Positions 10,019 to 38,250 of a DNA stretch of 64,000 nt are shown in pieces (position 1 is the stretch's first letter; each line of letters begins with the position of its first letter). The position numbers and the translations under genes are program-made. The notes under the pieces were generated by a model that saw only the letters and a program-made list of their open reading frames with translations, searched no databases and was not told the DNA's origin. Origin of the DNA: Halieaceae bacterium (GTDB lineage: Bacteria > Pseudomonadota > Gammaproteobacteria > Pseudomonadales > Halieaceae). The stretch covers positions 1-64,000 of the forward strand of contig CACMGJ010000007.1 of assembly GCA_902613175.1 (NCBI GenBank), in the 5' to 3' direction.

Positions 10019-11101
10019 CTAGGCGCCTCCGAGTCCCGGAATCTCGCAAAAAAAATCAGCCTCAACTTTCATACTGACGGCAGAGTTTTGATGGCCCGCA
10101 CCACCCCAATTTGGCATCACCATCGAATACAACCCGACTCCTCCAGCAACCATGACTAGAATGTGCTCCTGAGCCTTGAACGCGGGATATTCGCCATCAG
10201 GGTCGTCTATAAAATGTTTCCCAAATTCCCCTCCAAACCGAATATGGTCTGCTTTTGATAGATGTGTGAGCTCCCACAGTCTTTTTTGTATCGATTCTCT
10301 CGTGTGCCCCGATCGCGCCAGTACATTTGCGTGCTTAGGCCCTAAACAAACCAGCGCCATCCCTGATGCAAAAATGGCATTATTAGTGGCGATATTGGTC
10401 AGTCCAACGGACAAAATGTGCAAAAGCTTCTCCGCATCCTCGGGGTCGTCAGCGTTATCGCTATAAAGACACGAATGTGGTGCCTCGCAGCCTAAGACTG
10501 TGACGACGCTGTCAGACTCATCGAAGCCCAGGCTCGTATGCATGGGCGGGAAGGGCGACTCCTCCTCCGCTTCCGCGAGGCAATACGTAAACTTCCCGGG
10601 GTGGCCATGAAGGGCCATGTCAGATATACCGGGGCGCCCACCGCCGATATTGATCAAGCAAAGACGTAGAGCCCGTCCAATACTGGCGTTGGCTCGATGG
10701 CCGGGGCCAAGTGCGCCGTAACCGGACGCCACTGGACCGCAGGTGTTGCGAGCCGCCCCATTAACGATAATTAACGGGGCCGTGCAGTGTGTGGTCGCTT
10801 GCAATTCTGATAGGTCAAATTCGGGTTGTGCCACGGCTTTAACCGCCGCCACGAGAAGGGGCATGTAGTCCGGCTTGCACCCTGCCATCACGGCGGCAGC
10901 CGCAACCTTTTCTACAGTTGCAACGCCCATCAAGGGCCCCAATACACCGAGCACCATGTCGCCATCTAACCCAGTAGCCAGGATACTTTTGGTCACCCTT
11001 TCCACCGTAGGAATGATTACCGGGAGACCATCAGTGCAACCCAAGTCGTGAAGTTGCTCTAACGCCGACTCCTCGTTTTCAGCCGTCAAAAAGTCAAACA
11101 T
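10019..11101 (-). CDS. UGSC-associated partner protein (conserved, function unknown)
   Basis: This 360-residue protein belongs to the same family as residues about 185-523 of the gene at 36131. Shared blocks include CTDGLPVIIPTVERV near the N-terminus, AAAVMAGCKPDYMPLLVAAV with a conserved Cys, VNGAARN, GYGALGPGHRANASIGRALRL and the C-terminal PNWGGAG region. No signal peptide or membrane segment is seen. I chose the ATG at 11101 because it overlaps the end of the UGSC selenoprotein gene by 8 nt; an upstream in-frame start would lie inside that gene. The tight coupling, and the same pairing at 36-38 kb, suggest the two proteins work together. I do not assign a reaction. A decayed third copy lies at 27838-28161. 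Confidence 0.75.
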   Translation of the reverse strand: MFDFLTAENEESALEQLHDLGCTDGLPVIIPTVERVTKSILATGLDGDMVLGVLGPLMGVATVEKVAAAAVMAGCKPDYMPLLVAAVKAVAQPEFDLSELQATTHCTAPLIIVNGAARNTCGPVASGYGALGPGHRANASIGRALRLCLINIGGGRPGISDMALHGHPGKFTYCLAEAEEESPFPPMHTSLGFDESDSVVTVLGCEAPHSCLYSDNADDPEDAEKLLHILSVGLTNIATNNAIFASGMALVCLGPKHANVLARSGHTRESIQKRLWELTHLSKADHIRFGGEFGKHFIDDPDGEYPAFKAQEHILVMVAGGVGLYSMVMPNWGGAGHQNSAVSMKVEADFFCEIPGLGGA

Positions 11102-11630
11102 TTTCAAAACTATCCAGAATATCCTCAATAACTTCCTCAGCGATCAGCCCAATTTTTTCCTCCCCCAAGCCTGCGATCGGGTGTGGCAATCTAACTCGTG
11201 GAATGTCGGGCATCCCTAATGAAGTGGCTACAAACGACCCCTGATCCCAAAAATCTTCAGTGATCAAGGTCACCACGGGAAACCCTCGCTGAGCAATGTT
11301 GTATCCGTCACGCACGGTGCCGGTAGTGCAGCTGCCTCAGTGCCCGTAAGCGGCGATCGCGGCATCACAGGTTGCAAAGATATCGTCGAGCATCCCCTCG
11401 GTCGCTGCGACTCCCGCGTTGTTTTTATTCCAGAAAAGGGTCTTCACATTCGGCAGGCGCTGCTTTAGAGCAAGACCCACCTTCTTCACGAAAAGCTCAG
11501 AATCAGGGAAGCCATTTGCAATTAGCGCAACAGTAATGCTCTCACCAGCATTAGAGCGCAAATCGCAAGAAAGGACGTACGCCTGTTCTTCGGCCGAAGC
11601 CTCGCCTCGAGGATCAACAAATTCAATCAC
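11094..11630 (-). CDS. UGSC-family selenoprotein (in-frame TGA = Sec98)
   Basis: Two adjacent ORFs in the same frame are separated only by TGA at 11337-11339. Read through, they give one 178-residue protein with Sec98-Gly-Ser-Cys101, the signature of the UGSC selenoprotein family known from marine metagenomes. Sequence downstream of the TGA (RGFPVVTLITEDF...SLGMPDIPRVRLPHPI) matches the paralog at 37723, so the region is conserved protein and not a decayed tail. The start is a GTG at 11630 with a weak ribosome site. It is a small, probably cytoplasmic redox protein. The next gene, its partner, overlaps by 8 nt. A perfect 18-bp TetR-type palindrome lies 22 bp upstream. The chemistry is unknown; a selenol/thiol (U-x-x-C) redox pair is the natural reading. 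Confidence 0.85.
11303..11339 (-). promoter_or_regulatory. Candidate bSECIS downstream of UGA in the first UGSC gene
   Basis: In the transcript UGCAC pairs with GUGCG, starting 7 nt after the UGA, around a 10-nt loop that contains GG. An alternative fold pairs CCG with CGG outside GCA/UGC. Bacterial selenocysteine insertion needs a small hairpin just after the UGA. This one is weaker than those in the other two Sec genes. Confidence 0.4.
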
Positions 11631-11651
11631 TTTTCTATCTCTCGTTATTTC

Positions 11652-11669
11652 AATATAGTTAACTATATT
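11652..11669. promoter_or_regulatory. Perfect 18-bp palindrome AATATAGTTAACTATATT (TetR-type operator)
   Basis: The site equals its own reverse complement over all 18 bp. It lies 22 bp before the GTG of the first UGSC gene. Related sites occur at 353-370, 31633-31650, 31657-31674 and 33021-33038. The last of these is in the divergent MFS/tetR promoter region, which makes the TetR at 33121 the most likely binder. Confidence 0.65.
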
Positions 11670-12200
11670 TAGATGTGGTTATTGAGTAAAGAAGTTTTAG
11701 TGTTGGGTCGAACATAGTCTGGCCTCATACGTGGTATCGCGTGTTCGAGCCAGACGTTAACCAACGTCAGCTTGTGTAGCAGGCCCGCGGATAGGGACCT
11801 TTTACAAACACGTTCAAACTTGGAAGGAGCTCGAGACTACACTGGCTATGACCGCTTACAAAGAAGGCAGAAAACGCCTGGAGAACAACCTTCAAAGTCA
11901 GGTCACTCTCAAAATTTGGCTCTAATGGCTGGAGAAACAGTTTCGTAGTTGACGGAACTTGGATTAGAACGTGCAAGCGGGAGCAGGGGCATACGTCATC
12001 AGCTATGCTGAGTGATAATTATCTGCCTATTGCTCATTCTGACTATAAAGATTTGTTCGCAGATTAGTGAGCAAAAGACTTTGAGATGGATCGCAGGAAC
12101 GACCCGTGACGTCGCCTAGCGTTAGTGTCAGCTACGCGGCACTCACAGTCTTTCTTAATCGTCGCTGCTTTGATCACCCTGTTGGGAAAAGGAGAGAACA
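11670..12200. other. Intergenic region without a supported gene
   Basis: About 530 bp separate the first UGSC operon from the divergent SDR gene. One plus-strand frame around 11811-11926 reads as a short charged stretch (AYKEGRKRLENN) before a stop and may be a decayed gene fragment, but I cannot assign it. Nothing else was recognised. Confidence 0.4.
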
Positions 12201-12995
12201 TTGGACCTACAAATTGCAGGAAAAAAGGCGCTGATGGCAGGTGGCAGTGCAGGTATGGGGCGCGCAACGGCTGAACGATTAGCCGAGGCCGGTGTTGAGC
12301 TTTATATATCTGCACGTCGCGAGGAACGACTGGTTAGGGCCGCAAAGGAAATTGCTGAAACCTACGGCGCGACGGTAATACCCATTGTTGCAGACTCATC
12401 AACTGACGCAGGCCGGGCCACCTTGTTTGAAGCCTGTCCGGACCCCGATATTGTTGCAATTACGATCAAGCCTCCAGCGCCCAATGGAGACTTTTTGCAG
12501 GTCACGCCTGAAATGTGGCGAGAGTCAATTGAGACGACATTACTGGGCCCCATCGAGATTATGCGCCACTACATTCCTCACATGAAAGATCAGGGCTGGG
12601 GTAGGCTTTTAAACATAGGCACGTTTTCTGCAAAGAACCCAATGATCTGGCGCCTCATGTCGGGACCCGCCAGATCTGCTTTAATTAATTACACAGCGAG
12701 CGTCTCTCGAGAAATTGCTCAGTATGGCGTCAACATCAACAACATATTGCCCGGGATGTTTGCAACAGAAGGGTCGGAAGAAAATGCTATGGCCTATGCC
12801 GATGCCTTTGGCCTAGAGCACGACCACGAGGTTATTGCAGAGCACTTTCAACAACACAACAAAATTCCGGCTGGCTTTGCGGCGATTGCTGACGATATGG
12901 CGCCTATGGCCGCTCTTCTTTGCAGCCCCTTATCACGCTATATCGTTGGCCAAAATATTGTCATCGACGGCGGTCAGCATTACTCATTATTCTGA
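12201..12995 (+). CDS. SDR-family protein with replaced catalytic Tyr/Lys
   Basis: This 264-residue protein has the SDR Rossmann fold, with AGGSAGMG near residue 13 for NAD(P) binding and a typical C-terminus IVGQNIVIDGG. The usual YxxxK is replaced by SGPAR (Ser154, Arg158), so classical hydride-transfer catalysis is doubtful. It may act by another mechanism or as a binding protein. I use the TTG at 12201, preceded by GGAGAG; no better ATG exists upstream. It stands alone on the plus strand and faces the LysR/hydratase pair. Confidence 0.75.
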   Translation: MDLQIAGKKALMAGGSAGMGRATAERLAEAGVELYISARREERLVRAAKEIAETYGATVIPIVADSSTDAGRATLFEACPDPDIVAITIKPPAPNGDFLQVTPEMWRESIETTLLGPIEIMRHYIPHMKDQGWGRLLNIGTFSAKNPMIWRLMSGPARSALINYTASVSREIAQYGVNINNILPGMFATEGSEENAMAYADAFGLEHDHEVIAEHFQQHNKIPAGFAAIADDMAPMAALLCSPLSRYIVGQNIVIDGGQHYSLF

Positions 12996-13035
12996 GTTGA
13001 TTTTTTAGATTCGTTAGCGCAGACCAGTCCTTAAC

Positions 13036-13866
13036 TTATCGTGGAGATGGGGACTGGGAACGAAATGTAGTCTCTACCTGACCCAACTTATCGATTTTGA
13101 CGCGCACCAGGGAATCGCAGGTGATCGAAATTAACTCTGTGGGACATCCGGGAATCACTATCATACCTTTTTTCAAAACCTCGTCATTGCTAGACAAAAA
13201 GTTAACCAACCAGCGTAAAGATTCGAGGGGGCCTCCCATAATCTCGTCGGCTCTAGAGGACGCAACTAACTCGTTGTTCTGATACACGAAAAAATTTTCG
13301 CGCCCGAAGGTCAGCGCCCGGGGTGATACTTTCGTGTCGCCAACGATGAGGCCCGCGTGAATACCACCAGAACAGATAAGCTCCTGCGCACTCGGAGGTT
13401 GATGCCAAAACGTATAATCGTGGAGTTCTATTCCCGGGCTGACGTAGCTTATGGATTGAATAAGTTCCTCATCAGAGAGGTCTGCGCCACACAGATCGTG
13501 ACCTATCATCAGCACCATCTCTGGTTCAATAGCGCAATGACCATAGGCCGTCCAGTCAATCCCTATTCGCGCCCCAGTCACATAGGGAGCAAACAATCTC
13601 GCTGAAATGGGCGTAGCAAGACCCAATTGCGAACGTATCGCGCGGCTAGTGCATCCGACCTTGTACCCAACAACGCTCTCACCGCGCGCGATACGTTTCT
13701 CGCACACCTGATTTTGGACTTGGTAGGCCTCGGAAATAGCGAGGCGCTCCGGTGACGATTTTTCCAGTCGCCAAACCTTAGTGTAGTGAGCGTTAAAAAA
13801 AGCGTCAGCGACAGTCGCTAAGTCATGCTTGTAAGTACAATCTTCGGTAAGGTTGTCTTGTGACAA
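13036..13866 (-). CDS. 2-keto-4-pentenoate hydratase-like protein (FAH superfamily)
   Basis: This 276-residue protein resembles 2-oxopent-4-enoate hydratase/4-oxalocrotonate decarboxylase, enzymes of the lower meta-cleavage pathway. Supporting segments are VVGYKVGCTSRAI near residue 68, CAIEPEMVLMIG near 115 with acidic metal ligands, a central PGIELHDY and SSGGIHAG-like CSGGIHAGLIVG. It would add water to an enoic keto acid. Its start appears to be TTG at 13866. It lies 54 bp after the LysR gene on the same strand, so that regulator probably controls it. No ring-cleavage dioxygenase is nearby, so the natural substrate is open. Confidence 0.75.
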   Translation of the reverse strand: MSQDNLTEDCTYKHDLATVADAFFNAHYTKVWRLEKSSPERLAISEAYQVQNQVCEKRIARGESVVGYKVGCTSRAIRSQLGLATPISARLFAPYVTGARIGIDWTAYGHCAIEPEMVLMIGHDLCGADLSDEELIQSISYVSPGIELHDYTFWHQPPSAQELICSGGIHAGLIVGDTKVSPRALTFGRENFFVYQNNELVASSRADEIMGGPLESLRWLVNFLSSNDEVLKKGMIVIPGCPTELISITCDSLVRVKIDKLGQVETTFRSQSPSPR

Positions 13867-13872
13867 TTACGA

Positions 13873-13912
13873 TCCTTAACCTCGCGAGATCTTCCTTAAC
13901 CTCGCAAGCTTC
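13873..13912. repeat. Tandem 20-bp direct repeat between lysR and hydratase genes
   Basis: TCCTTAACCTCGCGAGATCT is followed directly by TCCTTAACCTCGCAAGCTTC, a near-exact 20-bp duplication in the 54-bp gap. It could be a regulatory site or a slippage product. Confidence 0.6.
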
Positions 13913-13920
13913 CAAGAATT

Positions 13921-14808
13921 TCAATCAAAGCATTTTGCAGCGAGTGCGAACGCGCGATCGAGCAACGGAGACCTTATATCCCTGTGCCGAAGACCCATGA
14001 TGTCAGTAGTAAATCGTTTGATAGGAGCATCCAGCTGTTTCACCTTTCCTTTTGCCAACTCGACCGCCATAGCAAGTTGCGGCGTGTGGCACAAACAATC
14101 GGAATTGATAACTAACTCTTTACCCATATGCAGTGAGTCAATCGCCACAATTCTAAGTTTGTTTCTCACTAAACTCGGACCCTCGGTCATCCGCGGGTAA
14201 TGAGGCGTGATGTCGGGTGCGTTGGTGTTTAGCATCCAGGGATAAGCCTGAAGATCTTTACCCGTTATGCAGCGATCAATTCCGGTAAGAGGGTGATCTG
14301 CGGAACAGAAAACTCCAAAATCGCTACGAGTCATCAGTTTAGAGATAAGCGACGCGGGTATTTTCCCATCACTAGGGACACTGCCGAATGCTATGTCGAT
14401 AGTCCCGCTCTCTAAATCAGAAAACATGCTCTCAAAATGGGATTCAGAAAACTCGACCATCAGTGACGGATACTCCTCACTCAGTGCAGAAGTCAATTTC
14501 CCAACGAAATCGCTCGAACGTATGTCACCCAACGCTATTCGAATTCTGGCATCACTGACCTTTAGCTCCGCTTGCGCAAGTCTTAAATATTCGAGGGTCC
14601 TTTTAGCGTGAGGATAGAAATCTCTGCCCCTCGCATTCAGAACCATTCCTCGGCCCCGCCGCTCAAAGAGCGAGACACCCAGCTGATTTTCCAGTCTTTT
14701 GATACTTCCGCTCAACCCTGGCTGAGATATATGCTGGTCGTCAGCCGCTGCATGGGCCGTGCCCGTCTCAACGAGCGCCACAAAGTGCTTCAACTGTCTA
14801 ACATCCAT
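13921..14808 (-). CDS. LysR-family transcriptional regulator
   Basis: This 295-residue protein has the LysR N-terminal winged helix-turn-helix (residues 1-60: MDVRQLKHFVALVETG, then ISQPGLSGSIKRLENQLG and LFERRGRG), followed by a periplasmic-binding-like effector domain from about 90. It sits immediately upstream of the hydratase gene on the same strand. This is unlike the usual divergent LysR layout, so it may control its own transcript together with the hydratase. The effector is unknown. Confidence 0.9.
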   Translation of the reverse strand: MDVRQLKHFVALVETGTAHAAADDQHISQPGLSGSIKRLENQLGVSLFERRGRGMVLNARGRDFYPHAKRTLEYLRLAQAELKVSDARIRIALGDIRSSDFVGKLTSALSEEYPSLMVEFSESHFESMFSDLESGTIDIAFGSVPSDGKIPASLISKLMTRSDFGVFCSADHPLTGIDRCITGKDLQAYPWMLNTNAPDITPHYPRMTEGPSLVRNKLRIVAIDSLHMGKELVINSDCLCHTPQLAMAVELAKGKVKQLDAPIKRFTTDIMGLRHRDIRSPLLDRAFALAAKCFD

Positions 14809-14990
14809 ATGGTCATCGCTCCTTATTGGGTATGTAGCTGAGCATTATTACGACGGCTTAACTCTATAGTCTGCCAACTCAGATGCCTACCATTTTCAAG
14901 TCGATCCAGATTTAGCCAAAACTCCACATCGGGGGAAAACTTGAGTCAACAATGGTCTATTTTTATCTATAAGAAAGAACTACATGCAAA

Positions 14991-15016
14991 AAAAAGCCGC
15001 CCTTTTAGGCGGCTTT
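14991..15016. terminator. Bidirectional intrinsic terminator
   Basis: AAAAGCCGCC and GGCGGCTTTT pair around CTTTTA, with an A-run on one side and a T-run on the other. It follows the stop codon of the TonB receptor gene at 15032 on the minus strand. Confidence 0.75.
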
Positions 15017-15031
15017 TCCAGCTACTGCGTC

Positions 15032-19976: not shown

Positions 19977-20015
19977 GCAAGTTCAAGTAATCAATATTCA
20001 GGTATGCGCGCGCTT

Positions 20016-26695: not shown

Positions 26696-27832
26696 TCAGA
26701 GCCATACCTCGAGATTATTGGCGCGTCCCATTTCTCGGGTTAAACGCATATCAAGTAATGCTGTCATGTCACACGCATCCAGCATGTCTTTTACATTTGA
26801 TTGATCCGTTGCAGACAACCCATCATAGACATCCTGCATTCGCTTCAGAACGTAAAAGCGAAACGGCTGGGCCCACGTATTGTAAGTCACTCCTTCAACC
26901 TCAAAATGACAAGAACCCACTGTTCGCTCGGCTTCAGTACCCGCTGGCATCGCTTTATTCTGGCCTAGCCACTCATTGATCGTATCGCAGGCGGCACCTG
27001 ATTCAGGGACAAAATCAATCGCAAAATGTTTCAACGCATCGATCAATGTCTGCGGCACCTCATCATTCGGTAGGTAATCGAGTTCTTCGTTTTTTAGGGC
27101 GACTAGCTTTTTAAACTCACCGACATCCGGCTCTGGACGATTCATTCTCTCGACCCACCGGAACAAACGAACCGCATGCGTCTGCATCAAGTTCAAGGGA
27201 GCGGGGTCTCTACCCAGATGCCCGTATAACGGTGCAATCATGGCAAAATCACCACGGCATGGTTTGTTGCCTAGAAAGTAAGGGTGGTCGGAGAAGTGCG
27301 CGTTGAGCTTCTTTAAGGTTCCCATGTGGTGAGTCTCAATGAAAGCATGCGTCTCTGGCGTCACACCCCACCCCGGATTGACGTTCCTTCTGATGTTCTC
27401 CATTCGCTCTAATGCCAGCTGTTCCGCATCCTCCTCCTGAAAAATAGTCTGGAAGTGGAATAGGAGGAAGTCGAGGTTTTCCTGATCAAAATTCCAGCGG
27501 TAATGCATGCAGGGTCTGAGGAATCCTTCGGCCCCCACCGCGTCTAAGAGCAGACTCGCAATCTGCTGGCGAGGAGTCATCGGCGAGAAGGCTTCACCAT
27601 TTAGGGCCTCAAAGTGATCAACAATGGCAACGCCGTCGCGAATGACATCGCCGTTTGGAAACTCGATGGTCGGAATACCACGACGCCCACCCGCCTTGGG
27701 CAAAACCGTGTCAAAAAAATGTTGCGAGGCATGAGGCTCTTCCCGGTAGTCGATACCTGCCTTAATAAGGTAGCTGCGCGCCCTGCCGGTCCAGAGAGAA
27801 AATGGGCCACCATACAATGTGATAGGTTGCAT
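26696..27832 (-). CDS. GST-like protein with C-terminal extension
   Basis: This 378-residue protein starts with a GST thioredoxin-fold domain (ITLYGGPFSLWTGRARSYLIKAGI). It has the helical-domain motif YFLGNKPCRGDFAMIAPLYG near 190 and an extra C-terminal region of about 140 residues. I start at the ATG at 27832, with AAAGGA upstream. Its start overlaps the stop of the decayed UGSC-partner copy (TGATG), so it was probably coupled to a UGSC-type module before decay. It ends the MFS-TonB-esterase transcription unit. A glutathione-dependent step on the imported compound is a plausible role. Confidence 0.7.
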   Translation of the reverse strand: MQPITLYGGPFSLWTGRARSYLIKAGIDYREEPHASQHFFDTVLPKAGGRRGIPTIEFPNGDVIRDGVAIVDHFEALNGEAFSPMTPRQQIASLLLDAVGAEGFLRPCMHYRWNFDQENLDFLLFHFQTIFQEEDAEQLALERMENIRRNVNPGWGVTPETHAFIETHHMGTLKKLNAHFSDHPYFLGNKPCRGDFAMIAPLYGHLGRDPAPLNLMQTHAVRLFRWVERMNRPEPDVGEFKKLVALKNEELDYLPNDEVPQTLIDALKHFAIDFVPESGAACDTINEWLGQNKAMPAGTEAERTVGSCHFEVEGVTYNTWAQPFRFYVLKRMQDVYDGLSATDQSNVKDMLDACDMTALLDMRLTREMGRANNLEVWL

Positions 27833-27837
27833 CAAAT

Positions 27838-28161
27838 GTCCTTTGCTATTTCTTGGGATAAATATTCCTTGTCAGACATGCCTACTATCGCGCGGAAGAA
27901 GTCGGTATCTAATTCGATGCTGATAGCCGCATACCGGTTAGCCGCGCCACCCCAGTTCGGTATGACCGTTGCTGACAATTAATTGACCGTCAGATACTCA
28001 CCTTCCGGATCATCTTTAAGCGCACTGCCGAACTCAACACCGTCATGACCAATCAACCTGCGTAGCTACCCGTAGGCTGGGATGGCCACCTTGTATTTCG
28101 ATAGTCCATAGGAAATTACCCCGGTAGAGGTCGACCCCACTAGATCGACAAATTTAATCAT
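27838..28161 (-). pseudogene. Decayed C-terminal remnant of a UGSC-partner gene
   Basis: Translated on the minus strand, this stretch gives GVEFGSALKDDPEGEY in one frame, similar to GGEFGKHFIDDPDGEYP in the partner at 10019. It then gives VIPNWGGAANRYAAISIELDTDFF after a frame change, similar to MVMPNWGGAGHQNSAVSMKVEADFF. An in-frame TAG and a TAA also break it. The leftmost ATG overlaps the esterase stop (ATGA) and reads MIKFVDLVGSTSTG, which I cannot place firmly. It is thus the third partner-type gene in the window, now inactive, with the esterase before it and the GST-like gene after it. Confidence 0.65.
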
Positions 28162-29372: not shown

Positions 29373-29376
29373 GTCA

Positions 29377-31587
29377 CTATCGGTTTCCAAAGAAACGAGT
29401 GACTTCAAAGCCCGCCTGTCTTGGCATATTCCAGGATCCTTGGCGGCCATAGGTCGTGTTAGACCCTTGAAGATTCGTGATGTAATCCTCGTCGGTCAGA
29501 TTGCGCACGAAGAGCCGAACACCCCACATGTCATCCGCACTATTCCAGTTCACATTCAGATTCATGATCGTATACGGATCAGTAGAGTCGTCCTTGTTGC
29601 CAAACTCTCGGTAATAGACCCGAGAGCGATAGCTGGCGTCCAGGCTTGCGGCAACGCTACTACCGCCACTCAACACTGTACTGTAAGAAATACCCAGATT
29701 AGTGCTGGTATCGGGCGCATAACTGAGCGGATTACCTTTGTTGTCCTGCACACCAAGAGCTGCGTTCAATGTATCGGTATTCAGGAACGTTCCGTACTGA
29801 TGGTCAAGTAGTGTCACTGCAGCGTTTAAACTCCAGTTTTCATTCAACGCGCTAGCGTACTCAAGCTCGAGGCCATCGATCTCGGCATCACCGGCATTGG
29901 TAATAACCCCCTGAATACCGATGACCTGTGCGACCTGGAAGTCGCTGTAGTCATAATGGAATAAGGCCATTCGTAGATTGCTTGATCCGTCGCCAAAGCT
30001 AGCTTTGTATCCGATTTCATAAGCGTCAACAGTTTCAGGATTCCAGGGAGGATTACAGTCTGAGCCATTTACACCGCCAACTTTGAAACCCTCCGAATAA
30101 GTGACATACCCCATACTGGTATCGCTCAAGTCATATTCAACTGAAGTTCTGATTGTGTTTTCAGACTCATCAAACTCTTGTTCAAATAACTCTGGTCCGC
30201 ACACTTGAGCAATCGGGACCGGACCACCTGGAAATTGCGCTAGTATCGTAAAGGCGTGTCCCTCCTTTTTTTCCTCTTCTGTACGGCGGATACCTGCACC
30301 CAGGCGCAAACGATCTGACACTGCCCAGGTAAAGTCAAAGAAAGCCGAGCGCGATTCGGTGTCGTAGTATGGCGACTGGAAATCGAGCTGGATTGGAACT
30401 GGTAGTGGAAAAAGCGCTGGTATCGGAAAGTCAAAAAACATGAAGTTCGCCCGATCGTCGTCCATGTAGTAGAGGCCAGAAACCCAATCCAAATCCCCGC
30501 TAGTACCCGAAACCGTAATCTCCTGGGTAAAGGTCTCGGTTTTCTGGTCAGCCCTTCGCTGGAACAGTCCGATACTGGTCGCATCTGCCGAAGTGTAGAA
30601 GTAGTTATCGAAATCCTGTTGTGCTGTGATCGACTTGATAGAAATGTCACCGACGTCCCACTCAAGCGTTAGGCTGGTGCTTTCATACTCCCGATCGGTT
30701 GCGACGGGGCCACGGCTATACATTTTCCAGGGCTCGGTCGTAAAGAGGGGGGTAGATGGCGGGTCAGTTCGAGTATCTAGGGCTGCCAGACCGCTGGCAA
30801 CACCCAAGTCGAAGTGCGAAACCGCCATGGCGTGGTGGTCCCAAACACCATCTTGTTTACTTCGTCCGTGAGTGAGAATTGCAGAAAGATCGTCTGTCAG
30901 GTCAGCTTCAACCGTTAGGCGCAGGTTCGATTTTTCACCTTGCATAAGGTCATCTTCACCTGGCTGAAGGTTCTCAATCCAACCTTCTCCAGCGTCAAGA
31001 TGATTGGCAGCAAGGCGGAACCTAACGCTGTCTCCTATGGGGCCACTGATTACACCCTCGACCGTTGAATGATCGAACTCGGCAAAACCTGCTCTAACAT
31101 AACCCTCGAGTTCATCGGTCGGCTTCGCCGTGATGTAGTTCACGGCCCCGCCCGTTGAGTTCCTTCCATACAAGGTGCCCTGCGGGCCCCGAAGAACTTC
31201 GACTCTCTCCAGGTCAAGTTGTGACAATCCGGCGCTGGAGCCGACCGATTGAACGACTCCATCAACACTTACCATCACTCCCGGCGCATCTTGGAACTGA
31301 CCAATACCTCTGATAGCAACCTGTCGTAAACCAAGGAACTCGCCAAACTGCAGACTGGGCACAAGGTACTGAATATCCCTTATATCTGTAATGCCCTTAT
31401 CACTCAGCTCTTCCATACCGAGTGCTGTGATAGAGGCAGGTGTTTCGAGCACAGTTTCAGAGCGCCGGAGACCCGTAACAACAACCTCCTCAATCGCTGC
31501 GGCACTTTCTTCGGCCGCACTAACTAAAGGTATGGAAAATACTGATGCAAATATTGACGCAAAAACAACATTCTTGAAATTTTTCAT
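29377..31587 (-). CDS. TonB-dependent outer-membrane receptor
   Basis: This 736-residue receptor starts at the ATG at 31587, with AAAGGAG upstream. It has a signal peptide ending VSAAEES, an EEVVVTGLRRSET TonB box region, the plug motif VEVLRGPQGTLYGRNSTGG and a barrel ending GFEVTRFFGNR. It should import an organic substrate. Two TetR-type operators (31633-31650 and 31657-31674) lie just upstream, so it is probably induced. A Tat-exported esterase follows after 4 nt, and an MFS transporter gene precedes it in the same direction. Confidence 0.9.
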   Translation of the reverse strand: MKNFKNVVFASIFASVFSIPLVSAAEESAAAIEEVVVTGLRRSETVLETPASITALGMEELSDKGITDIRDIQYLVPSLQFGEFLGLRQVAIRGIGQFQDAPGVMVSVDGVVQSVGSSAGLSQLDLERVEVLRGPQGTLYGRNSTGGAVNYITAKPTDELEGYVRAGFAEFDHSTVEGVISGPIGDSVRFRLAANHLDAGEGWIENLQPGEDDLMQGEKSNLRLTVEADLTDDLSAILTHGRSKQDGVWDHHAMAVSHFDLGVASGLAALDTRTDPPSTPLFTTEPWKMYSRGPVATDREYESTSLTLEWDVGDISIKSITAQQDFDNYFYTSADATSIGLFQRRADQKTETFTQEITVSGTSGDLDWVSGLYYMDDDRANFMFFDFPIPALFPLPVPIQLDFQSPYYDTESRSAFFDFTWAVSDRLRLGAGIRRTEEEKKEGHAFTILAQFPGGPVPIAQVCGPELFEQEFDESENTIRTSVEYDLSDTSMGYVTYSEGFKVGGVNGSDCNPPWNPETVDAYEIGYKASFGDGSSNLRMALFHYDYSDFQVAQVIGIQGVITNAGDAEIDGLELEYASALNENWSLNAAVTLLDHQYGTFLNTDTLNAALGVQDNKGNPLSYAPDTSTNLGISYSTVLSGGSSVAASLDASYRSRVYYREFGNKDDSTDPYTIMNLNVNWNSADDMWGVRLFVRNLTDEDYITNLQGSNTTYGRQGSWNMPRQAGFEVTRFFGNR

Positions 31588-31632
31588 TAAACATCTCCTT
31601 TCGAGCTCAGGTCTAAAGCTCAGCAGCACATA

Positions 31633-31650
31633 GTTATAGTTATCTATATT
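31633..31650. promoter_or_regulatory. Putative TetR operator, distal site before the TonB receptor gene
   Basis: GTTATAGTTATCTATATT matches the palindrome at 11652-11669 in 15 of 18 positions. It is the site nearer the receptor start and lies 24 bp, centre to centre, from the next site. Confidence 0.5.
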
Positions 31651-31656
31651 TTTTAT

Positions 31657-31674
31657 ATTATAGCTAACTATATC
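31657..31674. promoter_or_regulatory. Putative TetR operator, second site before the TonB receptor gene
   Basis: ATTATAGCTAACTATATC matches the 11652-11669 palindrome in 15 of 18 positions. It lies in the gap between the MFS stop and the receptor start, which points to a separate promoter for the receptor-esterase operon. Confidence 0.5.
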
Positions 31675-31678
31675 TAAA

Positions 31679-32989
31679 TCAAGCTTTTTCAGAATACTGT
31701 GCCTGGACGGCCTGTCTGTCGCGCTCAAAGCGGTGGCCGGCCATTAAGAAAAGGGGAATTGAAATTAGCGAAATCAGCGTAAAGATGAAGAGCGCTGTTG
31801 AGTAAGGAGAATCATTGCCTGAGGACTGCAGCCAGTCGATGAGCACCCCGCCGCTGGTCACACCTATCCCGACTCCTGCTAGTTGAATCATGAGGACAAG
31901 AAAACCCGTCATCATTCCACGTGCATTGGCAGGAACAAGATCCTGAATGGTGGCGAACGCTGGACCGTAGAAACAGCCCAACTGGAAGAATACACTGAAA
32001 ATTCCAATGAGAAACCAGATGCTATCGCCATCAACAAGTCGATAGGCAATATTAATTGGCGCAAGAATAATCATAACCAACGCCAAAAAAGTGGGTCGAC
32101 CAATGCCAGTCCAGCGCAGAAAAAGATCGCCGCCGACACCGCCGATAAAGTTGCCGATCACACCTCCTGAAATCGCCATCCATGCTGTGATCCGAGCCAC
32201 CTCGGTACGGTCGAAGCCTCGCTCCTCCACGAACCAAAGCTGTTCGAAGGTGCCAGCACCGAGCACAAAGGCGAAAATAATAGACCCGAGCACCGTGTAG
32301 CCGAGCGCGGGTGAGGCCGCAATCAAAGTCTTCAATGTCTTAATGATTGCTGGCAGCGATATCCCTGTTTCCAATGTGTGCGTTATGACCTGATGACGAG
32401 GTGTCTCCTTGATCAGCAACATCATCATTGCCAAAACAACACCAAGTCCGCCAAGCGCATAAAAACAGCCGCGCCACCCGAGATAAGGTTCGAGGTAAGC
32501 CACAATAAACATACTACCCGCGATGCCAATCGGCACACCGGTCCCGAAAACCCCCACTGCCAGTCCACGCCAGCGCTCTGGAAATCGATCACCAATCAGG
32601 GAGACGCTGGCCGGCGTCAGAATCGATTCGCCAACGCCGATGAACATACGCGGAATAGCAAGGGAAACGAAACCGCGGGCCGCGCCAGATACCGCAGTCA
32701 ATATGCTCCAAAACCCTAAACCAAACGCAATCAGACGGGTACGATTGACGCGATCCGCCAAGGCCCCCATAAACAGCCCCATGATCGCGTAGAAAAATAT
32801 GAAGATAAGCCCTGTAAGCAGACCAAATTGCGTATTACTCAGTTCCAGCTCGGGCACAATCCAGTTGGCAAAGGCCGCCAGCAGCTGACGGTCAATATAA
32901 TTGATGACGTTGAGGAACGTCAGAAACAACAAGAACCCGACATCCCGACCTCGAACTGATGCGACCTCGCCTTGAACGGTACGGGTCAT
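31679..32989 (-). CDS. MFS transporter (spinster-like)
   Basis: This 436-residue inner-membrane transporter has about 12 hydrophobic segments and the signatures LNVINYIDRQLLAAFANWIVPEL and IPRMFIGVGESILTPAS. It is a paralog of the protein at 21408. It is divergent from tetR with an operator between them, and the TonB receptor lies downstream. It probably moves the compound that the receptor brings in across the inner membrane. Confidence 0.9.
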   Translation of the reverse strand: MTRTVQGEVASVRGRDVGFLLFLTFLNVINYIDRQLLAAFANWIVPELELSNTQFGLLTGLIFIFFYAIMGLFMGALADRVNRTRLIAFGLGFWSILTAVSGAARGFVSLAIPRMFIGVGESILTPASVSLIGDRFPERWRGLAVGVFGTGVPIGIAGSMFIVAYLEPYLGWRGCFYALGGLGVVLAMMMLLIKETPRHQVITHTLETGISLPAIIKTLKTLIAASPALGYTVLGSIIFAFVLGAGTFEQLWFVEERGFDRTEVARITAWMAISGGVIGNFIGGVGGDLFLRWTGIGRPTFLALVMIILAPINIAYRLVDGDSIWFLIGIFSVFFQLGCFYGPAFATIQDLVPANARGMMTGFLVLMIQLAGVGIGVTSGGVLIDWLQSSGNDSPYSTALFIFTLISLISIPLFLMAGHRFERDRQAVQAQYSEKA

Positions 32990-33020
32990 AGATGCACTCC
33001 TAGCGAGATCAAATAACTTT

Positions 33021-33038
33021 AATATATCTAACTATACA
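33021..33038. promoter_or_regulatory. Putative TetR operator in the MFS/tetR divergent promoter region
   Basis: AATATATCTAACTATACA matches the 11652-11669 palindrome in 14 of 18 positions. It lies between the divergent MFS (start 32989) and tetR (start 33121) genes, the usual place for TetR autoregulation. Confidence 0.55.
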
Positions 33039-33120
33039 TATGTGGTAATCTCGCGACAAACGCTGCCTTGTTCAAATCGCGAAGTTCGATTATGGTGCCC
33101 GACTTTTTAGGGATCTTACA

Positions 33121-33747: not shown

Positions 33748-35797
33748 AACCAAATCTCGGCTTACGAGAGTTGAGTTGCTTTTAGTTTTACTCTGCCTGT
33801 CCGTTGGTTGTTCTGAAGTACCGCCGAATCAATCTTCATCAACTGCCCCTACCCCGGTAAATCCCGCATCAGCAGCATTCGACCCCCGCTATGAAATCCC
33901 CGGAGACTCATTGACTCTCCAACCGGACAAACAGACTTCGCGAAAGGCCTACTTCGGAGATCTGCACGTTCACACCGCCTATTCCCTTGATGCATTAGCT
34001 TACGGCACCCTAGCAATACCAAGCGATGCCTATCGCTATGCGAAAGGTGAAAAAATCAGGCATCCTGGTGGTTTTGATGTGCAACTGCGTCAGCCTCTCG
34101 ACTTTTATGCGGTGACAGATCATGCAATGTTTCTTGGTACGCTCAACGCTATCAGTGATGGCTCCAGTGAACTAGCGTCCTACGAACCCTACTCGAGGCT
34201 TAACGGTATCAACACTCCCGAGAATATGAGCCTCGAATCTCTAGGCCTACGTAGCACCGTAATGGCAGATCTGATCCTTCCGGCACTTAGTGGTATTGCC
34301 AATGACGAGCTAAATATCGAGACTTTCAATACGATAGCGAGGACCACATGGTCAAACACTGTAGCGGCAGCAGATCAACATAATGATCCGGGCTCCTTCA
34401 CAACCTTCGCCGGGTTTGAATACACCACGACTGCTCTCGATGGCGGCAATCTGCATCGTAATGTCATCTTTCGAAGTACTGACAAATTACCGGTCATGCC
34501 ATTTTCGAGATTTAACAGTAGGAACCCTGAAGATCTCTGGAATTGGATGGATGATCTAAGGTCACAAGGTATTGAAGCAATGGCGATACCGCATAACTCT
34601 AACGGCTCCAATGGGCAAATGTTCAGCCTAGTCGACTGGGCTGGCGACCCCGTAGATGACGACTACGTGAGTCAAAGGCTTCGCAATGAACCCCTAGTCG
34701 AAATCACACAAATCAAAGGGACGTCAGAGACTCACCCAGCCATATCGCCCTATGACGAATGGGCCGATTTCGAGATCATGCCTTTTATGGTTTCTATCGA
34801 TCAAACCCCAGACAGCAAAGCCAAAGGTTCGTACGTCAGGGATGCCATGCTTTCGGGACTGAAATTCCAACAAGACATCAAGGTCAACCCCTACCGATTT
34901 GGCCTGATCGGCTCATCCGATACACATAATGCGGCAACATCAGACGACGAGTCGAGTTACTTCATGAAGATGGGATTAAGGGATTCGACTCCTGAGTTGC
35001 GAGGTTCAGTGCCGCTCACCGGAGAGTCACTCGAGAAAGCAAGAAATTTGATGGATGAGATGCAAGAAGGCCAACAGTGGCAACGCTTTATCGACGTCGA
35101 TGGTGAAATTTACACCAACGGACCACAGATTCACTGGGGAGCATCTGGTCTTGCTGGTGTATGGGCGGCCCGCAACGATCGAACCTCAATCTATGATGCT
35201 TTCCGCCGCAAGGAAACATTCGCTACTTCCGGCACGCGAATCACATTGCGGTTTTTCGCGAGCTTCGATTTTACCAACCTCGGCATAGAGGACCCCGATC
35301 TCCTGACCAAGGCATACGGTAGCGGGATCACCATGGGTTCAAATCTTCCCGGTAACTCAGGGGGCGAGCCGGCCTTTATCGCCTGGGCTATCCGGGATCC
35401 AAATTCAGCTCCATTGCAACGCTTGCAGATCATAAAGGGGTGGATAGATGCAGATGGCGAACATGAACATGTTTACGACGTTGCCTGCTCTGATAACCTT
35501 GAAGTCGACCCAATTAATAACCGTTGCCCGAATAACAATGCAATGGTAAATACTGCTGACTGCTCAATCTCAGCAAGCAAAGGTAGCGCCGAGTTGAAGA
35601 CGATCTGGCACGATCCGGATTTCGATTCGAAGCATCAGGCGTTTTATTATCTTAGGGTTCTGGAAAATCCAACCTGTCGCTGGTCCACATGGGACGCTCT
35701 TCGTCGTGGTGTCAGTCCACGCAAGGGGGTCACCGCAACGATACAGGAGCGCGCCTGGTCGTCCCCTGTCTGGTACATTCCAAATGATCCTGAATAA
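33710..35797 (+). CDS. DUF3604 lipoprotein (PHP-like metal hydrolase fold)
   Basis: This 695-residue protein has a lipoprotein signal: LLLVLLCLSVGC, with the lipid-bearing Cys34. It should sit in the envelope facing the periplasm. The DUF3604 motifs FGDLHVHTAYSLDA near residue 83, AVTDHA near 137 and GSSDTHN near 400 resemble the metal-binding His/Asp sets of PHP hydrolases. The true start may be a few codons later, as the ATG at 33710 overlaps tetR by 38 nt. It lies between tetR and the thioredoxin-partner fusion. The reaction is not known; a periplasmic hydrolase for the same substrate is plausible. Confidence 0.8.
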   Translation: MISKKLSPVTLDKTKSRLTRVELLLVLLCLSVGCSEVPPNQSSSTAPTPVNPASAAFDPRYEIPGDSLTLQPDKQTSRKAYFGDLHVHTAYSLDALAYGTLAIPSDAYRYAKGEKIRHPGGFDVQLRQPLDFYAVTDHAMFLGTLNAISDGSSELASYEPYSRLNGINTPENMSLESLGLRSTVMADLILPALSGIANDELNIETFNTIARTTWSNTVAAADQHNDPGSFTTFAGFEYTTTALDGGNLHRNVIFRSTDKLPVMPFSRFNSRNPEDLWNWMDDLRSQGIEAMAIPHNSNGSNGQMFSLVDWAGDPVDDDYVSQRLRNEPLVEITQIKGTSETHPAISPYDEWADFEIMPFMVSIDQTPDSKAKGSYVRDAMLSGLKFQQDIKVNPYRFGLIGSSDTHNAATSDDESSYFMKMGLRDSTPELRGSVPLTGESLEKARNLMDEMQEGQQWQRFIDVDGEIYTNGPQIHWGASGLAGVWAARNDRTSIYDAFRRKETFATSGTRITLRFFASFDFTNLGIEDPDLLTKAYGSGITMGSNLPGNSGGEPAFIAWAIRDPNSAPLQRLQIIKGWIDADGEHEHVYDVACSDNLEVDPINNRCPNNNAMVNTADCSISASKGSAELKTIWHDPDFDSKHQAFYYLRVLENPTCRWSTWDALRRGVSPRKGVTATIQERAWSSPVWYIPNDPE

Positions 35798-35905
35798 CAG
35801 GAATAGCATTTGGTCTACTGAAGGCCTATCCACTACCCTCAATCCGAGACAATTTTGGCCGGTAATATCTAGTGGAACATTGGCCGGGAGGTTTAGTGCC
35901 GGGAA

Positions 35906-36127
35906 ATGAGGCAGATGATGCACTACGTAGCAAGACAGGAGATTAAACAATTCGTTGGGTTACGCAATAGCCTGAGACGAGGTTATCCCAGTATGTGGGG
36001 GCAGCCAGCAAAAGCTATGAGGGAGTACGAGGGACTCAATAACCTTGAGCAAGCCCCAGACCCGATTCCGATCGAATATCACGTCCGTACTGAGCAAACC
36101 TACGTCACAATCCCAAGGGACTTATAG
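35906..36127 (+). CDS. Small hypothetical protein
   Basis: This 73-residue ORF fills the gap between the DUF3604 gene and the thioredoxin-partner fusion and ends 3 nt before the next start. It has no signal peptide or membrane segment and no motif I recognise. The ribosome site is weak. Position alone supports it; it could also be a fragment of a longer lost gene. Confidence 0.35.
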   Translation: MRQMMHYVARQEIKQFVGLRNSLRRGYPSMWGQPAKAMREYEGLNNLEQAPDPIPIEYHVRTEQTYVTIPRDL

Positions 36128-36130
36128 CCC

Positions 36131-37702
36131 GTGTCGGTTATCACCCCATTCACTCTGGAAAACTCAGCGGGCAAAAAAATCAGCTTCCCCAGCACGCGCC
36201 GAGCTCTTGTCTGCTTTATCAAAGAGGACTGCCCTACTTGCAGGCTCGTCTTACCTCTACTAGCGGCCATACACGAATCGCTAGCCAGTGAACTCGACTT
36301 TTTTATTATCGGTCAGACCCGTAGCGGTAACTCCCAATTAATGAGTGAGTTCACACCCCCCTTCAATCTTCTCGATGACAGCGCGTTAAAAGTATCGTTT
36401 ACAAATGACATTGAAATCGTACCTCAGGTATTTCTGACCGACTCCGAGGGGCATGTACTGGCCGAACGAACCGGTTTTGTCCGTGAGGAATGGCAAAAGA
36501 TGGTCGCTGAACTGTTCGAAAAGCACCCCAGAGCTGAACGTAAAGTTGAATGGGACTCTCTCCCCAGCTGGCGCCCAGGTTGCGGTTCACTTTCAGTCGA
36601 TCCGCTGCATGCAGAGCGGCTTCAGGCTGAAGCCGAAAATAGTCCGATAAGGGCGCGACGGATAGAAATGGGAAGCCAGGACGACGAATTCGAATTCATG
36701 TTCGACCAAGGATTCACTGACGGCCTGCCGGTTATTCCACCAACGCCTGAGAGAGTGCTCCGCATGTTGCAGGGTACGAGTCTAGATTCGCAGGACATCA
36801 TCGCGACCATGCCGCCGAACATGGCGAACGTCACCGTCGAGAAAATTGCCATCAACGCTGTCATGGCCGGATGCAGACCCGAGTACCTGCCAGTCGTCAT
36901 GGCGGCAGTCGATGCCGTCTGCACCGATGAATTTAATATCCATGGCGTCATGGCAACAACTATGGGTGCTAGTCCAGTCATGATTGTCAACGGGCCAATT
37001 CGCCATCTCCTAAAGATGAACATGGGGCTAGGCGCGCTCGGCCAGGGAAATCGCGCCAATGCGACGATCGGCCGCGCACTTAGACTGGTCATCCGCAACG
37101 TTGGTGGCGCAAAGCCAGGCGGCACGGAGCGTTCGACATTTTCAAACCCCATGAAATTCACCATGTGTTTTGCCGAGTGGGAAGAGAGGTCCTGCTGGGA
37201 TCCATTTCATGTTGATCGCGGGTTTGACGCCGACGATTCGGTGGTAACAACCCTTGCCATGTCGGCAGGTCCAACTTTGATTCTTGATGAAACCACCACC
37301 GAAGCGCCTGTGCTGGCCGCAGCCATTGGTGAAGCAACCAAGGGTATGCTCAATGCCAACTGGTACGATTCCTCAAACTGCCTGATGGTTGTTTCTCCAG
37401 AACACAACGATGTTTTTAAACGGGGCAAGGTTAGCAAATCTGCCTTGCGCAGAGATATTCAGAGAGCCAGTGAAAAGTCCGTGCAAGAGCTTATTCACGG
37501 TCCGAGTGCATCACCGGAACAGCTTGCCAGCTTGGCTCAGCTACCAGCCGATAGGCGAATCGGGAAATTCGGTGCGGAAGATCATATTGAAATTGTTGTG
37601 GCAGGCAGCGAGGCTGGTAAATGCACCGCATTTTTTCACGGCTGGATCCCCAGAAGCATGGGCTCTATTCCGGTTTCCAGAAAAATAGACGACTATATGT
37701 AA
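36131..37702 (+). CDS. Thioredoxin-like domain fused to UGSC-partner domain
   Basis: This 523-residue protein has a thioredoxin/peroxiredoxin-like N-terminal domain with the redox motif C34-P-T-C37. After a linker, the C-terminal part (about 185-523) matches the stand-alone partner at 10019: FTDGLPVIPPTPERV, AVMAGCRPEYLPVVMAAV and GLGALGQGNRANATIGRALRL. The fusion links the partner family to thiol redox chemistry, which fits its neighbour, the UGSC selenoprotein 20 bp downstream. The start is a GTG at 36131 with AAGGGA upstream. It has no clear signal peptide. The partner domain's reaction is unknown. Confidence 0.75.
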   Translation: MSVITPFTLENSAGKKISFPSTRRALVCFIKEDCPTCRLVLPLLAAIHESLASELDFFIIGQTRSGNSQLMSEFTPPFNLLDDSALKVSFTNDIEIVPQVFLTDSEGHVLAERTGFVREEWQKMVAELFEKHPRAERKVEWDSLPSWRPGCGSLSVDPLHAERLQAEAENSPIRARRIEMGSQDDEFEFMFDQGFTDGLPVIPPTPERVLRMLQGTSLDSQDIIATMPPNMANVTVEKIAINAVMAGCRPEYLPVVMAAVDAVCTDEFNIHGVMATTMGASPVMIVNGPIRHLLKMNMGLGALGQGNRANATIGRALRLVIRNVGGAKPGGTERSTFSNPMKFTMCFAEWEERSCWDPFHVDRGFDADDSVVTTLAMSAGPTLILDETTTEAPVLAAAIGEATKGMLNANWYDSSNCLMVVSPEHNDVFKRGKVSKSALRRDIQRASEKSVQELIHGPSASPEQLASLAQLPADRRIGKFGAEDHIEIVVAGSEAGKCTAFFHGWIPRSMGSIPVSRKIDDYM

Positions 37703-37722
37703 GAAAGGTAAAGGAGACTGAT

Positions 37723-38250
37723 ATGTCAGTGACATTGCTAGATCCAACCAACGAAGAGGCACCGGTTGCTCGGCAGATAACGCCAAGACCGAAGGCGATC
37801 GTAGGCAAGGTTGCCCTGCTGGATATTGCTAAAAGGCGGAGCGATGAGTTTTTAGACCGTCTTCAGGAAGCGATGGAACGGCGACTTCCTCAAGTTGAAG
37901 TTAATCGGTATCACAAACCCACCTTTTCAAAACCGGCGCCGGCTGATCTGCGCAGGGAGATCAAAAAAATCAATGACTTTGTTGTCATAGGTCTTGCCGA
38001 CTGAGGTTCTTGTACGTCGTGCAGTTTGCATGACACCGTTTATTTTGAAATCGAGCAAAAGCCTACTGTGGCCATTGCGTCGACAGAATTTGGGGACGCC
38101 GCTAAAACTCAGGCAAAGGCTCTGGGTATGGCTGATGCGAGGTACCTACTAGTGCCGCATCCCATTCAGGACGCGACAGGTGACCAGATTCGTGAGAAAG
38201 CTGATGCGATCGTCGATGACGTAATAGCGGCGCTTAGCAATAAAGGATGA
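37723..38250 (+). CDS. UGSC-family selenoprotein (in-frame TGA = Sec94)
   Basis: Two ORFs in one frame are split only by TGA at 38002-38004. Read as one, the protein has 175 residues with Sec94-Gly-Ser-Cys97 followed by TSCSLHD. The sequence after the TGA (PTVAIASTEFGD...ALGMADARYLLVPHPI) matches the paralog at 11094, whose Sec is at residue 98. The start is ATG at 37723 with AAGGAG 6 nt upstream. A 7-bp hairpin with a GUU loop lies in the right place for a bSECIS. It is the last gene of the tetR-DUF3604-fusion series and probably works with the fused thioredoxin-partner protein. A GTPase SelB and tRNA-Sec must be elsewhere in the genome. Confidence 0.85.
38017..38033 (+). promoter_or_regulatory. 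bSECIS-like hairpin of the second UGSC gene
   Basis: TCGTGCA (38017-38023) pairs with TGCATGA (38027-38033) over 7 bp, one pair being G-T, around the loop GTT. The loop G lies 20 nt after the TGA, within the spacing and loop-G rule known for bacterial selenocysteine insertion elements. Confidence 0.65.

Follow-up and report, generated by a model that had tools for sequence, protein, structure and literature searches.

UGSC-family selenoproteins and their partner proteins in a Halieaceae genome: a candidate two-component selenoenzyme

Two UGSC-partner pairs in the window

The window analysed here is a stretch of 64,000 nucleotides on contig C7 (CACMGJ010000007.1) of the genome of a Halieaceae bacterium (GCA_902613175.1; 1.9 Mb, 58.6% complete). 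It contains genes for selenoproteins of the UGSC family, paired with genes for a larger protein, called the partner in the following. Two complete pairs were found, at 10.0-11.6 kb (copy A) and at 36.1-38.3 kb (copy B):

10019..11101, minus strand: large partner, copy A, about 360 amino acids; 8-base overlap with the UGSC stop; without a Pfam or NCBIfam family
11094..11630, minus strand: UGSC selenoprotein, copy A; PF24696 141.5 bits (cut-off 25), NF041046 98.5 bits (cut-off 125, below)
11307..11321, minus strand: nucleotide-frozen codons +6 to +10 after the TGA of copy A, resembling a selenocysteine insertion sequence (SECIS); codon entropy 0
36131..37702, plus strand: partner, copy B, fused; thioredoxin-like domain (CPTC) at about 36131-36640, partner core at 36677-37702
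37723..38250, plus strand: UGSC selenoprotein, copy B; PF24696 152.7 bits (cut-off 25), NF041046 147.4 bits (cut-off 125, above)

A preliminary description of this DNA had reported a complete pair twice and in opposite gene orders, which the coordinates and PF24696 scores bear out. Copy A is read in the order UGSC, partner, and the reading frames overlap by 8 bases; in copy B the thioredoxin-like domain and the partner precede UGSC. Both selenoproteins are family members by Pfam (PF24696), whereas by NCBIfam (NF041046) only copy B is. The motif UGSC, which reads CGSC in cysteine forms, was found in both. The in-frame TGA lies at 11337-11339 in copy A, whose start codon is uncertain (GTG at 11630 was taken), and at 38002-38004 in copy B. 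The two partners share 36% identity. A third complete pair was detected elsewhere in the genome (G000:C3:65542-67072, contig C3); its partner shares 61-62% identity with the copy A partner.

In the table of a 2008 ocean survey (GOS), UGSC was the fifth most frequent selenoprotein family with 255 Sec and 21 Cys forms, and its fusion to a conserved domain 'Unknown_1' was noted (PMC2398784). The partner described here is probably this domain. UGSC and the fused 'Unknown_1' are thus already described, but not their function. Reviews up to 2026 list UGSC without function, and the entry names of PF24696 and NF041046 give neither partner nor function. Neither a function of UGSC nor a named partner was found in the accessible literature, which included selenoprotein catalogues (PMC2398784, PMC13188914, PMC9312934, PMC7539508 among them) and left subscription journals and preprints outside the search.

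Pairing across genomes and selenocysteine decoding

The pairing of UGSC with its partner is near obligate. In a sample of 398 genomes of the phylum, UGSC was detected in five (E ≤0.001) and the partner in the identical five (E ≤1e-10). Among 117 relatives, 39 UGSC matches were found in 31 genomes. For 32 of these loci the surroundings were examined, and the partner adjoins UGSC in 31; the exception (L036) ends at a contig edge. Three of the other seven matches were read later (L158, L161, L195) and have the partner as well. Starting from the partner, the best 80 of 582 confirmed loci in named genomes were investigated, a sample leaning to close relatives and well-matched sequences. UGSC lies within 1 kb on the same strand at 71 of them. 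Of the nine remaining loci, two have the partner at a contig edge (L072, L089), two are on contigs of short length (L092, L112), and in two others additional copies of the partner are nearer or arranged in tandem (L083, L109). Furthermore, 14 natural fusions of UGSC and partner in a single frame occur in 11 of the 80 loci. Since the two genes clearly co-occur elsewhere (the same five of 398 genomes, 71 of these best 80 loci), the proposal in the preliminary description that they form one module holds.

The partner was detected in several bacterial phyla and in haloarchaea, while the GOS report places Unknown_1 in a few aquatic organisms only (PMC2398784). It is also encoded in 24 of 72,556 plasmid records, haloarchaea among them. 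Seven plasmid loci were read: six have a UGSC-like domain, and none is in view in Haladaptatus. One of the six, the fusion protein on a Sporomusa termitida plasmid (L202:7320-9044), matches weakly with 28 bits and reads GDMGTS at the active site, without Sec or Cys; it is possibly a non-catalytic or differently working form.

Two further loci have unusual arrangements. At L109:1926-6110 four partner genes stand in tandem, with a single UGSC gene 2.7 kb downstream; one Sec subunit may serve several substrate subunits there. The partner gene at L073:10001-10999 has an in-frame TGA of its own, and its flanks of 10 kb showed no UGSC. A sequencing error, decay or a Sec-containing partner would each account for this TGA.

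The UGA in the UGSC genes very likely encodes selenocysteine, since SelB and tRNA-Sec are present and five codons after the UGA are frozen at synonymous sites. In the genome of the window, a SelB gene (402.7 bits, cut-off 242.25) adjoins a tRNA-Sec (71 bits, gathering score 47) on contig C15. Among the 117 relatives, SelB scored above the cut-off in 24 of 27 genomes with UGA-containing UGSC genes vs 8 of 90 others (Fisher p 4e-15, which overstates independence because the genomes compared are related). Two of the three genomes without a SelB call are incomplete (79%, 62%), and in the third SelB is split between frames. G053 and G063, the two genomes whose intact UGSC has Cys at the site, gave no SelB above the cut-off. 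At the 80 partner loci, the site is TGA in 75 of 82 UGSC genes and Cys in seven.

In genes of the copy A type, each of the codons +6 to +10 after the UGA is a single synonymous codon (36, 36, 36, 35 and 36 counted; entropy 0). The mean codon entropy of the nine scored positions between +1 and +14 was 0.30, compared with 0.87 at 47 conserved positions elsewhere in the 36 genes (p 1.6e-5). For a second group of 35 genes the conservation was slight (0.72 at four positions vs 0.82 at nine, p 0.004). The frozen stretch sits about where the apical loop of a bacterial SECIS is expected. By folding energy the stretch after the UGA is not set apart (mean z -0.56 over 75 genes vs -0.18 to -0.43 in shifted controls).

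Probable distant relation to GrdB and link to thioredoxin

For the fold of UGSC, a natural UGSC-partner fusion (L084) was modelled with pLDDT 92.6 and pTM 0.92, using fused and partner rows only; a mixed alignment of fused and separate proteins had split the UGSC rows. In this model, strands and helices of the UGSC domain alternate and Sec follows directly after the third main strand. The thioredoxin fold has the order beta-alpha-beta-alpha-beta-beta-alpha, and its first long helix marks the active site. No thioredoxin was among 50 listed of 1689 PDB matches; the listed ones are mixed, with low TM-scores and, by their names, many Rossmann- or flavodoxin-like proteins. A thioredoxin fold of UGSC was rejected because of the alternating beta/alpha order, the position of Sec after strand 3 and the lack of thioredoxins among the listed matches. 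Thus, the predicted UGSC fold shares the UxxC motif with Trx-like and Prx-like selenoproteins of the thioredoxin fold and differs from them in architecture. It also differs from the GOS report, in which a Trx-like fold was thought likely (PMC2398784). Sequence searches of solved structures with UGSC and partner profiles gave chance matches only.

A relation to another selenoenzyme was indicated by profile comparison. In a scan of 46 UGSC members against NCBIfam (E ≤10), 21 matched TIGR01917, the model of GrdB of glycine/sarcosine/betaine reductase, with a best E of 2e-6. PrdB of D-proline reductase (TIGR04483) was matched by nine members and TIGR01918, GrdH and GrdF by seven each; the next families were matched by two, so that apart from UGSC itself only GrdB-type models reached more than two of the 46. 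No GrdB match was obtained for the same members with Pfam. In the aligned ranges of L084, the Sec (residue 93) lies near position 347 of the GrdB profile, and the Sec of GrdB is at about position 350. The UGSC profile was also aligned with an eight-member bacterial GrdB-like family (UPVC/CPVC) by hhalign (E 5.2e-6, probability 86%), placing CxxC on CxxC; this family consists of below-cut-off relatives from Pseudomonadota, not of true GrdB sequences. Judged from the aligned ranges and this CxxC match, the catalytic Sec has the corresponding position in the C-terminal domain. We therefore read UGSC as a distant homologue of GrdB that is not a member of that family.

Both systems have a thioredoxin link and a need for a second protein in common. 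In GrdB and PrdB, thioredoxin or a dithiol drives the reductive cleavage of a C-N bond; for UGSC, the link was observed as gene linkage to thioredoxin and thioredoxin reductase. In contrast to GrdB and PrdB, UGSC is a short stand-alone domain without a GrdE- or PrdA-like partner, its scores are far below the cut-offs, and most of its hosts are not classical amino-acid fermenters. Among the GrdB-like relatives, two proteins of Pseudomonadota (L125:1501-1965 and L131:1501-1917) have an in-frame TGA before PVC (UPVC, with CPVC in their relatives) and weakly match the GrdB/PrdB-type model TIGR01918; they appear to represent another branch of the GrdB superfamily.

No Pfam or NCBIfam family was found for the partner in a scan of 76 members. 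The AlphaFold2 model of the copy A partner is of high confidence (pLDDT 93.8, pTM 0.92), and a Foldseek search with it gave no match at E ≤0.001. A homology to GrdE or PrdA was rejected, as no match appeared among the 76 members at E ≤10. Four polar residues are invariant in these members: Asp23, Arg142, Asn150 and Glu176 (numbering of copy A, 10022-11098). A catalytic role of a conserved partner cysteine was discarded, since Cys74 and Cys173 are near-invariant, not invariant.

The claimed fusion of one partner copy to a thioredoxin-like domain with CPTC was confirmed in the N-terminal extension of copy B (36131-36676). By sequence, its nearest solved relative is ResA (E 8e-4); the AhpC-TSA score of 16.5 bits is below the cut-off of 26. 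From the ResA match and the CPTC motif, the extension is assigned as a putative thioredoxin domain. The same order of CxxC extension, partner and UGSC was found at L030, L032, L145 and L146. Thioredoxin reductases were searched for in 111 regions with UGSC or partner: 24 from relatives, 80 from named genomes and 7 from plasmids. One scoring above the cut-off is encoded close to or next to the pair, in the same orientation, on plasmids of Roseovarius sp. THAF8, whose pair has a natural Cys form of UGSC, and of Variovorax sp. SRS16. Proteins with TIGR01292 (thioredoxin reductase) as best match, below its cut-off, adjoin the pair on the same strand in L095, L099 and L170 and lie about 5 kb downstream in Paracoccus (L198, same strand). 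On the opposite strand, thioredoxin reductases occur at L040, L042, L161 and L171. None was found in the remaining regions or in 20 control regions. The plasmid loci were picked from a hit list and first noticed by annotation, so that this count is not unbiased. A coupling of the pair to thioredoxin is likely from these gene arrangements.

From these findings, the following reaction can be proposed. UGSC and partner would be two halves of one enzyme. Catalysis would take place in UGSC, a domain of five strands in alternating beta/alpha order that has Sec after the third strand and is distantly related to the C-terminal catalytic domain of GrdB and PrdB. Substrate binding is probably the task of the partner, a separate globular protein that carries the four invariant polar residues; to judge from the neighbouring genes, the substrate may be a carboxylic acid. 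The selenolate would attack the activated carbon of the substrate and displace a leaving group X. A thiol, usually the UGSC cysteine or else thioredoxin, would then resolve the Se-C bond, giving the reduced product and a selenenyl sulfide, and thioredoxin with thioredoxin reductase would restore the selenolate. The product acids would go on to CoA activation. Cleavage of a C-X bond is suggested by analogy with glycine reductase, which works with thioredoxin and a Se-C bond (PMC10298544). The near-obligate pairing, the fusions and the signals for Sec decoding are direct observations, and predictions or statistics support the fold class, the distant GrdB homology and, at some loci, the thioredoxin linkage. 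We see an even chance that the pair is such a thioredoxin-driven, GrdB-like two-component reductase in carboxylate catabolism, a proposal for which we infer chemistry, partner role and substrate class. The thiol-selenol redox chemistry assumed in the preliminary description is favoured by the fused thioredoxin domain, the thioredoxin reductases beside some copies and the distant GrdB homology.

The UxxC motif and the fused thioredoxin domain would also fit an enzyme of antioxidant defence or repair with thiol/selenol chemistry, similar to a peroxidase or disulfide reductase, which protects against reactive electrophiles and has no part in catabolism. Earlier authors grouped UGSC with redox proteins of the thioredoxin fold (PMC2398784), and in several genomes of the same genus the pair stands opposite genes for an aldo/keto reductase, a VOC protein (both recognised by eye) and a crotonase. 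However, the modelled fold is not thioredoxin-like and the second cysteine is dispensable in some members. The conserved operon with transporters, CoA-transferase and carboxylase described below, and the several paralogues per locus or genome, as expected of substrate-specific enzymes, also speak against such a role, which we regard as unlikely.

A non-redox reaction of the racemase, lyase or hydrolase type, with UGSC as nucleophile or acid/base and the partner as main catalytic scaffold, was considered as well. It would agree with the weak structural matches of the partner to class I fumarase and cyanuric acid hydrolase (best E 8.3e-3, TM about 0.28), with an Asp/Glu racemase match (PF01177) of one of the 46 UGSC members (E 0.026), with the absence of the resolving Cys in some members and with that of the nucleophile in the Sporomusa fusion. 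But neither the structural matches nor the racemase match are significant, and a kinship of the partner to fumarase or cyanuric acid hydrolase was rejected for this reason. Moreover, selenocysteine usually marks redox or Se-C chemistry, and the TGA prevails at the site in the 82 UGSC genes. Together with the thioredoxin and thioredoxin reductase linkage of some loci, this makes a non-redox role quite improbable.

Operon context and substrate

The genes around the pairs and the decayed site were compared with related loci:

3140..6544, minus strand: biotin-dependent carboxylase (biotin carboxylase, biotin carboxyl carrier protein and carboxyltransferase in one chain); conserved in L163, L044, L078 and L195
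6618..9041, minus strand: class III CoA-transferase (CaiB family), long form of 807 amino acids with more than one matching stretch; PF02515 446 bits; conserved in L163, L044, L078 and L195
9080..9868, minus strand: SDR dehydrogenase downstream of pair A, from profile matches; conserved in L163, L044, L078 and L195
25571..26614, plus strand: second glutathione S-transferase (GST)-like protein; NF049950 IsoI 19.4 bits (cut-off 300); no Pfam match at 1e-4
26696..27835, minus strand: GST-like protein adjoining the probably collapsed pair; PF13417; IsoI glutathione S-transferase 18.2 bits (cut-off 300)
27877..28041, minus strand: decayed partner C-terminus; tblastn E 1.6e-8 to the copy A partner; one in-frame stop
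28066..28161, minus strand: possible UGSC N-terminal remnant; match with E 8.7, not significant alone, placed by operon order against L163 and L044
28158..29450, minus strand: alpha/beta hydrolase (Abhydrolase_3), ahead of UGSC in the intact operon
29377..31728, minus strand: TonB-dependent receptor of the putative ancestral operon, from comparison with related loci
31679..32989, minus strand: MFS transporter; belongs to the operon in L044, no counterpart found in the stretch of L163

In one genome of the same genus (G033, L163), the genes form a single run of TetR, GST-like protein, TonB receptor, hydrolase, UGSC, partner, GST-like protein, SDR, CoA-transferase and carboxylase. Two Porticoccaceae loci keep the gene order to the carboxylase, starting from the MFS transporter (L044) or the TonB receptor (L078). 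Thus, the operon from TonB receptor to carboxylase is conserved in one same-genus genome and two Porticoccaceae loci. The counterpart of the GST-like gene at 26696..27835 follows the partner in L044, L078 and L163, and that of the second GST-like gene stands near the operon in L044 and L163.

The preliminary description had noted a decayed partner copy at 27.8-28.2 kb, and a partner C-terminus was indeed detected there. Remains of a partner gene, interrupted by two in-frame stops, lie at the corresponding site in a sibling genome (L193; E 8.5e-6 vs copy A and 3.6e-7 vs L044), so that a whole pair has probably collapsed here. In the window the operon genes stand in two blocks: MFS transporter, TonB receptor, hydrolase and GST-like gene surround the collapsed pair; SDR, CoA-transferase and carboxylase accompany the intact pair at another place. 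The same split was found in the sibling G045, judged by its two contigs. Therefore, as read from gene order, what had been taken for a repeated catabolic module is one split operon plus the separate thioredoxin-type pair of copy B; the catabolic operon itself is real, its order being conserved in relatives.

Of the neighbours named in the preliminary description, CoA-transferase, carboxylase (with biotin carboxylase), GST-like and DUF3604 genes were found, whereas the dehalogenase is real but lies 8.5 kb beyond copy A. DUF3604 was dismissed as a module member, as it occurs only beside copy B and in its two close orthologues. Two further genes of the window are:

417..1463, plus strand: haloalkane dehalogenase-type hydrolase; NF002043 372 bits (cut-off 265)
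46082..46834, plus strand: a second selenoprotein type, the AhpD-related CFYUT family; NF041238 301.7 bits (cut-off 175), covering profile positions 1-238 of 357; it may run on past a stop read as Sec

In other lineages the neighbours include TctC or TRAP transporters, CoA-transferases and a CoA ester lyase, and in L040-L042 fumarase-like genes, recognised by eye, follow the partner. Compared with 20 control stretches, taken non-randomly at round-number positions in seven genomes, a crotonase was found near UGSC in 8 of 20 regions vs 1 of 20 (p 0.02 before correction for 16 tests) and a CoA-transferase in 4 of 20 vs 0 of 20 (p 0.11); the UGSC regions include orthologous loci. Acyl-CoA genes near UGSC are thus only weakly above the controls.

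A specific version of the proposed reductase is suggested by the two GST-like genes, the SDR and the CaiB-type transferase in or near the operon. In a pathway similar to isoprene degradation, the pair of the window operon would reductively strip glutathione or another thiol from an electrophile adduct. The isoGHIJ genes encode GSTs, a dehydrogenase and a CoA-transferase (PMC10057887), and IsoI is the sole NCBIfam match of both GST-like proteins. Yet the IsoI scores of these proteins are far under the cut-off, a GST-like gene stands at few UGSC loci (1 of 20 regions; 3 of 80 named loci), and no monooxygenase was identified among the window ORFs scanned, which are a part of all open reading frames. 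We rate this version as having a small probability.

The least probable of the readings, in our view a very unlikely one, is that put forward in the preliminary description: a haloacid would lose its halogen in a reductive step that depends on selenium, and CoA activation would follow. For the dehalogenating step no specific support was obtained: the dehalogenase at 417-1463, which might point to it, is without a counterpart in the 12 loci of the comparison, some of which are short, and DUF3604 accompanies only copy B and its orthologues. Neither was a dehalogenase-type family recognised among the clustered neighbours, most of which are unannotated. The idea is kept alive by FarB/FarE of Cloacibacillus, GrdB/GrdE-like proteins for which cleavage of the fluoroacetate C-F bond has been proposed; FarE is without the pyruvoyl-forming cysteines (PMC10838667). 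As would apply to UGSC and its partner, this pair belongs to the GrdB superfamily and has diverged towards a different leaving group; however, FarB and FarE are GrdB/GrdE relatives in anaerobes, and the UGSC partner shows no relation to GrdE.

Several observations weigh against the thioredoxin-driven, GrdB-like reductase that we prefer. Regarding the GrdB relation, the scores are far below the cut-offs (18.5 bits vs 602 for TIGR01917 with the best of ten members scanned alone), the two UGSC copies of the window gave no GrdB match at E 0.01, and the partner lacks a GrdE or PrdA match in both NCBIfam and Pfam. The interface confidence of the fusion model is given by the pTM only. Three of the 80 partner loci (L073, L100, L110) have wide flanks in which no UGSC was found. 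At the active site, the second cysteine is missing or displaced in a few of the 82 genes (UGSS in three, CGTS in one, UGCA in one), a Variovorax plasmid relative carries CGAA, and the Sporomusa fusion has neither Sec nor Cys. The linkage to thioredoxin or thioredoxin reductase is confined to a minority of loci, and the enrichment of neighbour genes over control regions is weak. Finally, the hosts also include Smithella (L114) and Sporomusa (L202), so that, going by host names, the family is not exclusive to aerobes.

With these points considered, we tentatively suggest, at slightly below even chance, that the pairs represent an unrecognised class of two-component selenoenzymes: a thioredoxin-driven counterpart of GrdB, also in aerobic lineages, with a substrate subunit of new fold and reductive C-X cleavage in carboxylate catabolism. 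Equally tentatively, this class would extend over Pseudomonadota, Acidimicrobiia, Chloroflexota, other bacteria and haloarchaea and be multiplied within genomes. The specific partner, the GrdB-like and not thioredoxin-like nature of UGSC and the thioredoxin wiring of some copies can guide co-expression, the choice of reductant and the search for adducts.

Halieaceae are known as an aerobic lineage. Selenium-carbon reductase chemistry has so far been described in anaerobes (PMC10298544). If the proposal is true, this chemistry would also operate in lineages known as aerobic, such as Halieaceae, and the degradation of certain carbon compounds would be tied to selenium supply. A selenoprotein family that ranks among the most abundant in aquatic habitats would then be a catalyst of reductive C-X bond cleavage.

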